Assembly (NCBI GenBank): GCA_025463925.1
Contig: JAODBK010000101.1
Span: 1 to 60,060, forward strand
Source: Acidimicrobiales bacterium
GTDB taxonomy: Bacteria; Actinomycetota; Acidimicrobiia; Acidimicrobiales; AC-14
Direction of reading: 5' to 3'
DNA: 60,060 nt
The number at the start of each line of letters is the position of its first letter. The first letter of the stretch is position 1. Both the position numbers and the translations under genes were made by a program. The notes under the pieces were generated by a model. That model saw only the letters and a program-made list of their open reading frames with translations, ran no database searches and had not been told where the DNA came from. Shown here one piece after another: positions 10,101-15,052 of this stretch.

Positions 10101-10517
10101 CTACGCGAGGAACTCGGCGAGCGACGCCAACGAGAGGTCGCAGGTGTTGCCGGTCAACGCCTGCGACGCGCCGGTGTCGGTCCGGGAGAGCTCGCAGCTC
10201 GCTCGGCTTACGGCTTCGATCTCGGCGAGCAGGGCGCGCATGCTGTCCCGGTGATCGTCGAGGATCGTGCCGAACGGTGACGGTGCAGTCACGGCGAGAT
10301 CGGTGAGCGTCCGGTCCGGCCCGATCACCAGCGCCCGTTTCAGCTCGGCGTCGCGCGCGAGTTGGAGCACGCGCTCGAGCTCGGCCGACGCCAACGCGTA
10401 GAAGCGGTCGTCCCCCTCGGCCAGCAAGTGCTGCGCCTCGACCAGCTTGAACAGCAGCAGCTCGAGGACCCGCCTCTCGGCAGCAAGGGACCGGGCCAGC
10501 TCATCCATCTCCACCAT
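10101..10517 (-). CDS. FlgN-like flagellar export chaperone family protein
   Basis: 138 residues, almost entirely long amphipathic helices (for example RRVLELLLFKLVEAQHLLAE), as in FlgN-type chaperones that guard hook-associated proteins before export. The match is by helix pattern and length, so it is moderate. It converges on the sigma-28-type gene with a 9-bp gap, which supports a flagellar association. No other flagellar gene lies in the window. The start at ATG 10517 is uncertain by three codons. Confidence 0.6.
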   Translation of the reverse strand: MVEMDELARSLAAERRVLELLLFKLVEAQHLLAEGDDRFYALASAELERVLQLARDAELKRALVIGPDRTLTDLAVTAPSPFGTILDDHRDSMRALLAEIEAVSRASCELSRTDTGASQALTGNTCDLSLASLAEFLA

Positions 10518-10570
10518 GGCAGTCCCCCCATCGGCAGGACCGACCTCGCCATGAGGAGTACGGTCGGTTC

Positions 10571-11035
10571 ATGCTCACCGAGGGTGACATCGCGCCGGAC
10601 TTCGACCTTGCCGACCATGAAGGCGGTCGCGTCCGCGCACACGACCTCCGCGGCCGATGGGTCGTGCTCTGGTGGTACCCGAAAGCCTCGACGCCCGGCT
10701 GAACGATCGAAGGCCGGGGGTTCCGTGACCGAACCCCAGAGTTCGAAGCCCTGAACGCCGAGATCCTCGGCATCTCGTTCGACACGCCCGAGGAGAACAA
10801 GGCGTTCGCCGACGCCGAGGGCTTCCCGTATCGCCTCCTGTCCGATCCGGACAAGGCGATCGGCGAGGCGTTCGGTGCCGCCAAGGGGCCGGACGAGCAG
10901 TGGCCGATGGTGCCGAAGCGCCTCACGTTCCTCATCGACCCCGACGGCGTCGTCCGGCGCTCGTACGAGGTGACCGATGTCGGCGGTCATCCGGACGCCG
11001 TACTGGCGGACCTCCGGGCGCTCTCGGGCAACTAG
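10571..11035 (+). CDS. Bcp-type peroxiredoxin with in-frame TGA at the catalytic position, probable selenoprotein
   Basis: Reads MLTEGDIAPDFDL..., then WWYPKASTPG, then TGA at 10700-10702 (codon 44), then TIEGRGFRDRTPEFEALN and on, open and family-like to TAG at 11033-11035 (154 residues). In Bcp/AhpC proteins the consensus at this point is TPGCT.E...FRD, so the TGA replaces precisely the peroxidatic cysteine codon. That pattern is the signature of selenocysteine. A hairpin starting 14 nt after the TGA fits a bacterial SECIS (separate entry). The resolving cysteine position (+5) is Arg, and the protein contains no cysteine at all, so it would be a 1-Sec peroxiredoxin needing an outside thiol. 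A TACGGT hexamer 6 nt before the ATG suggests a leaderless transcript. Conventional gene calling splits or misses this gene. The alternative is a nonsense mutation or base error. Confidence 0.85.
10707..10746 (+). promoter_or_regulatory. SECIS-like hairpin for selenocysteine insertion
   Basis: Inner stem GGGGTTC (10717-10723) / GAACCCC (10731-10737), 7 bp perfect, with a 7-nt loop CGTGACC. An outer stem TCGAA (10707-10711) / TTCGA (10742-10746) is separated by an internal loop. The apical loop begins 22 nt after the TGA and has G among its first two bases. Both fit the known bacterial SECIS rules (loop roughly 16-37 nt after UGA, G in the first two loop positions). SelB recruitment is inferred. 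Confidence 0.7.
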
Positions 11036-11259
11036 AACCAGGTCGTCCGCGCGGGGTTCGCCGGGCGGACCTCCTCGGGGGCGAACACGCGCGGCAGGAC
11101 GTGCTCATCGACCTCACGGCGGACCACCACGCCGTACGGGACCACGTCCTCGATCACGAACCCACTGCTCCACGACGGCACGAACGGATTGAGGATGTCG
11201 ACCCTCGTCCCCCGCGCCAGATCGACGAGGCCCTCCTCGATCCGCTCCATCTCACGCAT
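11032..11259 (-). CDS. Small conserved-looking protein, 75 residues
   Basis: Starts at ATG 11259 behind a good AGAGG site (7 nt spacing): MREMERIEEGLVDLARGTRV and on, ending in PARTTWF. The sequence suggests a compact beta-barrel (RVDILNPFVP, GFVIEDVVPYGVVVRRE, DEHVLPRVF), reminiscent of small SH3- or KOW-like folds, but I do not recognise a family. Its TAG stop interlocks with the stop of the convergent peroxiredoxin in CTAG. A longer in-frame reading upstream only covers the antisense strand of the next gene. Confidence 0.65.
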   Translation of the reverse strand: MREMERIEEGLVDLARGTRVDILNPFVPSWSSGFVIEDVVPYGVVVRREVDEHVLPRVFAPEEVRPANPARTTWF

Positions 11260-12928: not shown

Positions 12929-15052
12929 ATGCGCCGCTTGGGGATGTCGTTGCTGCTCGCGCCCGTCCTCGCGCTCCTGCTGCCGTCGGCTGTCGCGCAG
13001 GCCGCCGGGCCGTCCACCTTCCTCATCACCGGCTCGGGCTTCGGCCACGGCGTCGGCATGAGCCAGTACGGCGCATACGGCATGGCCCTCGACGGCAACA
13101 ACGCGACGCAGATCCTGCAGCACTACTACACCGGCACGACGATCTCGCCGGCCAACGACAACGTGCCGCTGCGGGTGAACCTGTTCGCGTCGAACACCGC
13201 GCAGTTCCGCGGCGAGCCCGCGATCCCTGGCGCGGGCGGCGTCGACGTCGCCGTCGACGGCGTCCACACCACCGGTCAGGCGTTCCAGGTGTTCAACCTG
13301 GCGGTGAGCGGCACCAAGGTCGCGGTCACGTCGAACAATGCCGCGGTCGGCACCGGCGACCTCGTCACCGTGGGCTGGGCGTTCACGTTGCTCAACGTGC
13401 CCGGACCGGGCCAGCCGTTCGACGACGACCCGCGCGCCCACCGCTATCTGTATGGCAGCCTCGACGTCGCGGTCGTGGGCGGGCAGTTGCAGGTGGTCAA
13501 CCAGGTGCGGCTCCACCAGGACTACCTCAAGGGCATCGCCGAAGTGCCGTCGTCGTGGCCGGCGGCGACGCTGCAGGCGCAGGTCGACGCGGCCCGCACG
13601 TATGCCCTCCGCAAGTACGCCGCCGGGGTGCGGCCCGACTGCCGCTGCCACGTCACCGACGACACTCGCGACCAGGTGTTCGCCGGGTGGAGCAAGGAGG
13701 CCGAGCCGACCTACGGCCAGAACTGGGTGCAGGCGGTGGCAGCGACGTCGGACGACAACAACGGCACGGGCCAGGCGATCCTCTCCGCCGGCGCGCTCAT
13801 CTCGGCGAACTACTTCTCGTCGTCGGGCGGCCGCACCGAGAACAACGAGGACGGCTTCGGTCCCGGCGCGACGCCGCTGCCGTACCTCCGCAGCGTGGAC
13901 GACCATTGGAGCCTCGATCCACGCGTGAAGAATCCGATGGCGTCGTGGACGCGCACCAAGAGCCAGGGCGAGATGGCGTTCGCGTTCAACCTGCCCGACG
14001 TGACCTCGTACGACATCAGCGACCGCAGCGCGGGTGGCTCGGTGCGCAGCGCGGTGGGCACCGCGTCCAACTCGGCGACGGCCACGATCTCCGGCGCGTC
14101 GTTCCGCAGCCGGCTCAACCTGCCCGGTGGTTGGGTCCGCAAGCCGGTGGTCCGCGTTGCCGGCGCCGACCGCTACGCGACGAGCGCGGCCATCGGCGAC
14201 CTCGGCGTGCCCAGCGGCGACACCGTCGTCATCGCCAGCGGTGAGACCGCCCATCTGGTGGACGGCCTCGTTGCCGGGCCGCTGGCCCACGCCAAGGCGG
14301 CGCCGCTGTTGCTCGCGACCGCGACGGGTTTGCCGGCACCGATCATCACCGAGATCGACCGGCGCAAGCCGTCCAAGGCCATCCTCGTCGGCGGCGCCGG
14401 CGCGCTCGGACCCGGCGTGAAGAGCGACCTGCAGGCCCACGGGGTCCCGGCGTCGGGCATCACGCAGCTCGCCGGCACCGACCGTTACGACACCGCGCGC
14501 GTCGTGGCCGCGGCGATGGGCGGCACGCGGCCGAACGTCGTCATCGCGTCCGGTGAGCCCGGCCACCTCGTGGACGCGCTCACGGCCGGCGGGCCCGCCG
14601 GCGCGGTGGGTCAGCCGGTGCTGCTGGTGACGTTGGGCGCGGTGCCAGCACCCACCAAGCAGGCCCTCACGGAGCTGAGCACCACGAAGACCGCAGTCGT
14701 GGGCGGCGTCTCGTCGGTATCGGACGCGACGATGGCCCAACTGCCGTCGCCGACGCGCGTCGCCGGCAACACCCGGTACACGACGGCGCTGAAGGTGTCG
14801 GACTACTTCTTCGCCAACATCCCGAAGGACGCGGTGTTCATCGCGTCGGGTGCCGACGCCAACCTCTCCGACGCACTCGCCGGCGGGGCGCTCGGCCGCA
14901 TCATGATCCTGACGACGCCGAGCCCGCTGCAACCCGACTCGGAGTTCTGGCTGCGGGGCAACCCAGAGATCGGCGCCTTCTACGTGCTGGGCGGCACCGG
15001 CGCGGTCGCCGACAGCACGCTGGCGCAGATCCGCACGTCGGTCGGGGGCTAA
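12929..15052 (+). CDS. Secreted SpoIID/LytB-domain protein with cell-wall-binding repeats
   Basis: 707 residues with a Sec signal peptide (core LLLAPVLALLLPSAV, cut after AQA). The SpoIID domain follows, with its GSGFGHGVGMSQYGAYGMA glycan-binding signature near residue 35 and LRVNLFASN. SpoIID proteins act on peptidoglycan, as lytic transglycosylases or their activators. From about residue 408 there are three cell-wall-binding type 2 repeats, each with RVAGxxRYxTA and VVIASG motifs, which would hold the protein in the wall. Its TAA interlocks with the stop of the convergent lipoprotein gene. Confidence 0.9.
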   Translation: MRRLGMSLLLAPVLALLLPSAVAQAAGPSTFLITGSGFGHGVGMSQYGAYGMALDGNNATQILQHYYTGTTISPANDNVPLRVNLFASNTAQFRGEPAIPGAGGVDVAVDGVHTTGQAFQVFNLAVSGTKVAVTSNNAAVGTGDLVTVGWAFTLLNVPGPGQPFDDDPRAHRYLYGSLDVAVVGGQLQVVNQVRLHQDYLKGIAEVPSSWPAATLQAQVDAARTYALRKYAAGVRPDCRCHVTDDTRDQVFAGWSKEAEPTYGQNWVQAVAATSDDNNGTGQAILSAGALISANYFSSSGGRTENNEDGFGPGATPLPYLRSVDDHWSLDPRVKNPMASWTRTKSQGEMAFAFNLPDVTSYDISDRSAGGSVRSAVGTASNSATATISGASFRSRLNLPGGWVRKPVVRVAGADRYATSAAIGDLGVPSGDTVVIASGETAHLVDGLVAGPLAHAKAAPLLLATATGLPAPIITEIDRRKPSKAILVGGAGALGPGVKSDLQAHGVPASGITQLAGTDRYDTARVVAAAMGGTRPNVVIASGEPGHLVDALTAGGPAGAVGQPVLLVTLGAVPAPTKQALTELSTTKTAVVGGVSSVSDATMAQLPSPTRVAGNTRYTTALKVSDYFFANIPKDAVFIASGADANLSDALAGGALGRIMILTTPSPLQPDSEFWLRGNPEIGAFYVLGGTGAVADSTLAQIRTSVGG

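Follow-up and report, generated by a model that had tools for sequence, protein, structure and literature searches.

A probable selenocysteine-containing peroxiredoxin of the Bcp/PrxQ type in an Acidimicrobiales genome

The window, the whole stretch of DNA that was analysed, is one entire contig (C94, 60060 bases) of a 4.08-Mb, 119-contig genome of an Acidimicrobiales bacterium. Its forward strand contains a frame that begins with ATG at 10571, closes with a TAG ending at 11035 and is interrupted by one TGA. With the TGA read as selenocysteine (Sec, U), the product has 154 residues, 43 before the TGA and 110 after it. Translation returned the frame, the coordinates and the single TGA as an earlier sequence-only reading of this DNA had described them. 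The features of the locus are as follows.

10554..10558, forward strand: possible ribosome binding site AGGAG, 12 nt 5′ of the ATG (sequence reading only)
10571..11035, forward strand: probable selenocysteine peroxiredoxin gene, Bcp/PrxQ type (translation with TGA as U, Pfam, structural model, PDB folds)
10700..10702, forward strand: TGA, probably read as selenocysteine, residue 44, at the peroxidatic position of PxxxTxxU (conservation in Sec genes)
10717..10737, forward strand: putative bacterial SECIS hairpin with a 7-bp stem, 10717-10723/10731-10737 (folding, bSECIS test, comparison)
10724..10730, forward strand: apical loop CGUGACC of the putative SECIS, in which the codon CGT (10724-10726) gives G-U (loop codon conservation)
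10919..10921, forward strand: codon of Arg117, the probable catalytic Arg (invariant in 39 Sec proteins by alignment)

Five other frames of at least 100 residues touch 10571-11035. A Pfam search of four of them (10362-10754, forward strand, was left out) found no domain, and the proposal that an overlapping frame is the real gene was set aside as lacking Pfam support in the four scanned. The other five reading frames were also compared across the 39 distinct Sec genes introduced below: an antisense frame is open throughout in 20 genes, another frame in a single gene and the rest in none. The Rfam search of 10400-11200 gave two matches, both at chance level and neither located at the TGA. Positions 12929-15052, roughly 1.9 kb past the gene, encode a protein in which a SpoIID domain is combined with three stretches of cell-wall-binding 2.

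The predicted protein matches the Pfam families AhpC-TSA (E=5.5e-36, residues 5-130, with Cys in place of the TGA) and Redoxin (6e-18), and the frame is family-like on both sides of the TGA, as first proposed. Its best NCBIfam matches are to thiol peroxidase/PrxQ models, where it scores 103.6 bits against a cut-off of 140 and 100.8 bits against one of 260, thus reaching neither. The former is NF006960, the thioredoxin-dependent thiol peroxidase model, to which each of the 39 Sec proteins has a match with E of 1e-10 or less. An AlphaFold model built with Cys for Sec from 39 sequences has a mean pLDDT of 97.3; in it, helix 42-53 carries residue 44 in its first turn. The closest PDB folds are Sulfolobus Bcp1, M. 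tuberculosis BcpB and Xanthomonas PrxQ, and the sequence search also ranks Bcp/PrxQ nearest to the window protein.

The Bcp/PrxQ signature is present in full, comprising the AhpC-TSA domain, PxxxTxxC/U and Arg117. The peroxidatic site of the window protein reads PKASTPG-U-T. Thr41 is found in all 39 Sec proteins, Pro seven residues before Sec in 37, and the invariant Arg117 occupies what we take to be the position of the catalytic Arg of peroxiredoxins. The residue five after Sec is Arg in 20 of the proteins, the window protein among them, Gln in 12, Lys in four and Ser, Glu and Cys in one each; the usual resolving cysteine is therefore missing in 38 of 39. Chains free of any cysteine number 26, again including the window protein. 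Some PrxQ proteins lack the +5 resolving Cys or carry a resolving Cys elsewhere. The loss of the canonical resolving Cys in the Sec clade, for which peroxidase activity is a prediction, would be compatible with a true selenoprotein that has the peroxiredoxin fold and some other redox role. This alternative is judged very unlikely, as PxxxTxxU and the Arg are kept to the extent given above and the nearest solved folds are those of Bcp/PrxQ enzymes; the peroxidase reading is preferred.

Among 60 related genomes (E up to 1e-25), 16 have a match and 10 of these, source genome included, carry a TGA at this position. In the sample of 396 genomes from the phylum (E up to 1e-32), nine have a match, eight with the TGA (source genome included) and one without. 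Scanning named genomes brought 41 relatives, of which 27 have TGA and 14 a Cys codon. Five duplicate loci (L041-L044, L058), whose DNA between -30 and +200 of the start of the Sec codon is identical to that of loci from the search of the 60 relatives, were dropped. The resulting set comprises 39 distinct Sec genes, the window gene and its relatives. Seven of them, late additions from the 396-genome sample, are counted in the 39 and left out of the 32-gene hairpin test and the tRNA-Sec test. The locus G058/L034 was rejected as a Sec gene: its match was scored as containing one TGA, yet it has Cys at position 44 and its aligned part is TGA-free.

The 39 genes come mostly from Actinomycetota, with two from Gammaproteobacteria. 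Every one of them, the window gene included, has the TGA at residue 44 and exactly one in-frame stop over 143 codons. The aligned codon is TGC or TGT in 24 Cys homologues, which bears out the earlier placement of the TGA at the peroxidatic residue of a Bcp-type protein. A pseudogene or a sequencing error, in which a Cys codon became TGA and the frame beyond it is drifting, would require a change of only one base from TGC or TGT, in a draft genome of 119 contigs and a window where chance SECIS-like hairpins are frequent. However, the same TGA occurs in 39 distinct genes of two phyla, none of which has a second in-frame stop. Since independent genomes carry it, the TGA is no sequencing error, which settles the doubt first raised over 10700-10702. 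Comparison with four relatives gives dN of 0.29-0.33 and dS of 0.79-1.35 upstream of the TGA, and dN of 0.27-0.36 and dS of 0.86-0.95 downstream, where dN/dS is about 0.3-0.4 and the frame does not behave as one that drifts. These four comparisons indicate that the codons before and after the TGA alike are under purifying selection. Decay or error is accordingly considered extremely improbable, and the TGA is best regarded as a functional codon.

The source genome holds the machinery for selenocysteine insertion, and all four of selA, selB, selC and selD, the search for which had been proposed as a check, are present. The selB (262 bits) and selD (321 bits) matches are over cut-off, as is tRNA-Sec (68 bits), which ARAGORN calls as tRNA-SeC with anticodon TCA. 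The selA gene is cut by contig ends into two pieces, which score 255 and 118 bits and each stay below cut-off; they cover model positions 61-257 on contig C29 (L009) and 273-454 on contig C95 (L010), the latter piece directly before selB.

Within the 60 relatives, all 10 that carry the Sec gene have tRNA-Sec, as do 31 of the 50 that lack it (p=0.015, with relatedness left out of account). For selA the counts are nine of 10 and 30 of 50, a difference that is not significant (p=0.067); no selA match was found in the Sec-gene relative G005, an assembly of about 630 contigs. A further test of tRNA-Sec took in 23 named-genome loci within L045 to L068, namely 22 Sec genes and the Cys member L047. 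Matches above 60 bits were obtained in 19 of the 22 Sec-gene genomes, those of G460 (45.7 bits) and G464 (48.5 bits, marginally above the gathering score of 47 but no better than secondary matches in other genomes) are weak, and the search of G457 gave no match. Overall, 29 of the 32 Sec-gene genomes tested have a strong tRNA-Sec match.

A TGA that reads as a residue within a peroxiredoxin frame would also be expected if TGA had been reassigned to an amino acid genome-wide, as in codes of the 4 or 25 type. That selB, selD and tRNA-Sec all occur in the source genome argues against this, as does the use of TGA as a stop: it closes 35 of the 50 open frames of at least 400 codons in the window, a mechanical count that includes overlapping frames, and is the first stop past the Sec codon in 21 of the 39 genes. 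Because TGA still terminates these 21 genes, the recoding would be local and the code unaltered; an altered code is hardly credible here. Local decoding as Sec is the reading retained.

The hairpin downstream of the TGA has seven perfect pairs starting 14 nt past it, and its 7-nt loop is separated from the TGA by 21 nt. This is the geometry previously noted, a 7-bp stem whose loop begins at the 22nd nucleotide and has G in second place. Published criteria for bacterial SECIS elements are a loop of 3-9 nt, a stem of 4-16 bp, G in loop positions 1-2, a distance of 16-37 nt from the UGA and an energy at or below -7.5 (PMC13188914). In our own implementation of these criteria, applied to the bare hairpin, the window element passes with a loop of 7, a stem of 7, G second, 21 nt and -10.5. 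Counting both strands, the window has 1135 TGA triplets, and 201 of them pass. The original claim that a TGA followed by a SECIS is unlikely to arise by chance is thus too strong, and the argument from the hairpin is weak because SECIS-like hairpins are common after TGA in this GC-rich DNA. Fold energy was likewise rejected as stand-alone evidence: it does not stand out for DNA of this composition (z -0.42 against shuffles) and such hairpins are common at TGAs of the window. Support for Sec decoding is drawn from conservation, not from the lone hairpin.

Under the strict hairpin test, six of 32 Sec genes fail (L025, L027, L031, L053, L062, L064), L027 keeping four of the seven pairs, and two of 23 Cys homologues pass. 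For the Arg in the loop, 38 of the 39 Sec genes use CGT and the other uses CGG, whereas only 21 of the 316 remaining Arg codons of these genes are CGT. Both codons yield G followed by G or U, which fits the published SECIS model. The stems were then compared with the 5′ arm kept at a constant distance from the TGA and the best register taken for each gene. Loops of 7 nt are best in 32 genes, of 5 nt in six and of 6 nt in one, so the hairpin is kept in spite of a shifted 3′ arm. In the best registers 260 of 273 pair cells form, against a shuffled mean of 239.6 and with none of 2000 shuffles as high, a contrast that relatedness inflates. The gene L085 has C-G at a stem pair that is G-C in 30 of the 32 genes of its register. 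Together, the loop codon and the stem pairing point to selection on the hairpin at the RNA level.

The machinery, the conservation of the TGA in all 39 genes and the conserved loop codon support what had been proposed as a probable selenoprotein. It is very probable, on comparative grounds, that the gene encodes a selenocysteine-containing peroxiredoxin of the Bcp/PrxQ type in which the UGA at residue 44 is read as Sec.

A tree built from 63 rows unites the 39 Sec genes with two Cys rows in a single group (support 98/96), and the Sec/Cys label requires three changes on it. One of these Cys rows, L047 (JASHYA010000312.1), adjoins five Sec genes within a larger Sec group (supports 95/86, 97/75 and 87/93). 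It keeps a SECIS-like hairpin, with an energy of -7.4, barely short of the limit, and the CGT loop codon, and its genome has a strong tRNA-Sec match. L047 looks like a recent change from Sec to Cys. The other Cys row, L089, has a long branch and its placement is unsure. The Sec form also occurs in the Gammaproteobacteria L062 (Thioalkalivibrio sp. HK1) and L064 (a gammaproteobacterial MAG), both with strong tRNA-Sec matches. This occurrence suggests that horizontal transfer of the Sec form is probable.

The source genome additionally has two PrxQ-like genes (L090, L091) with an active-site Cys and a Cys at +5. A peroxiredoxin-like frame elsewhere in it (L095, G000:C26:94717-95160) has a TGA in GFG-U-PFC, of the UxxC type, followed by a hairpin, and is a probable second selenoprotein of this genome.

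The proposed cycle would begin with SelB and tRNA-Sec inserting Sec at the UGA of residue 44, a step directed by the downstream hairpin. The selenol, activated by Thr41 and Arg117, would then attack hydrogen peroxide or organic peroxides and become selenenic acid, which an outside thiol would reduce. The outside thiol is the likely reductant because Arg stands in place of the +5 Cys and no cysteine occurs elsewhere in the chain, and the enzyme is probably regenerated in this way. Mycothiol/mycoredoxin or thioredoxin may be suggested as a guess. A search with the MshC model (E up to 1e-40) matched 59 of 60 genomes, none over cut-off, and also 13 of 14 controls; at this threshold MshC is not separated from its relative CysS. 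Selenium is described as resistant to overoxidation (PMC8533274), a property that would fit an enzyme lacking the resolving thiol.

A wider proposal is possible, although doubtful. The Sec genes would form a distinct, largely cysteine-free one-Sec PrxQ subfamily, with the loss of the resolving Cys tied to Sec and direct regeneration by mycothiol/mycoredoxin, acting as a bacterial functional counterpart of glutathione peroxidase on the PrxQ fold and having passed between Actinomycetota and Gammaproteobacteria on one or more occasions.

Sec peroxiredoxins with a TxxU motif are tabulated in reviews that cite Eubacterium acidaminophilum, one of which files them under COG1225 (Bcp) (PMC9312934, PMC13188914). 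These Bcp-class entries agree with the initial statement that Sec peroxiredoxins are known as a class. The Sargasso Sea survey lists 43 Sec peroxiredoxin genes of COG1225 with TxxU (PMC1088965) and a 2006 genome survey 12 Sec peroxiredoxins (PMC1794560). By these descriptions, the window gene is a member of the known Bcp-type Sec peroxiredoxins. A literature search pairing selenoprotein and selenocysteine with Acidimicrobi- found no report among the papers searched, and the branch, set against published Sec peroxiredoxins by description only, may be undescribed. To the Bcp-type Sec peroxiredoxins it adds a branch made up, by record titles, mostly of uncultured Acidimicrobiia and other actinobacteria. 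It also offers a comparative case, with Sec and Cys PrxQ in one genome, a Sec clade nearly without resolving Cys, and the hairpin of L047. Annotation that is unaware of Sec is expected to lose or cut the gene of a probable peroxide-defence enzyme.

As described, the E. acidaminophilum type of Sec peroxiredoxin shares with the window protein the peroxiredoxin fold, the peroxidatic Sec and TxxU. The window protein differs in being cysteine-free and in scoring 55.5 bits on the PrxU model NF040737, far under the cut-off of 270. The Sargasso Sea proteins are of the same class and motif by description and may include members of the window clade. The Cys enzymes of the Bcp/PrxQ family, such as C. glutamicum PrxQ, Xanthomonas PrxQ (5iiz) and M. 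tuberculosis BcpB (5epf), share its sequence family and fold. The PrxQ of C. glutamicum has its peroxidatic Cys at position 49 and, five residues further on, the resolving Cys54 (PMC5811025), whereas the window protein has Sec for the peroxidatic Cys and Arg at +5. AhpE of M. tuberculosis, classed as a 1-Cys peroxiredoxin (PMC5811025), is similar in fold (1xxu, TM 0.89), but it has Cys, not Sec, and is a weaker sequence match to the window protein than Bcp/PrxQ (52 vs 98 bits).
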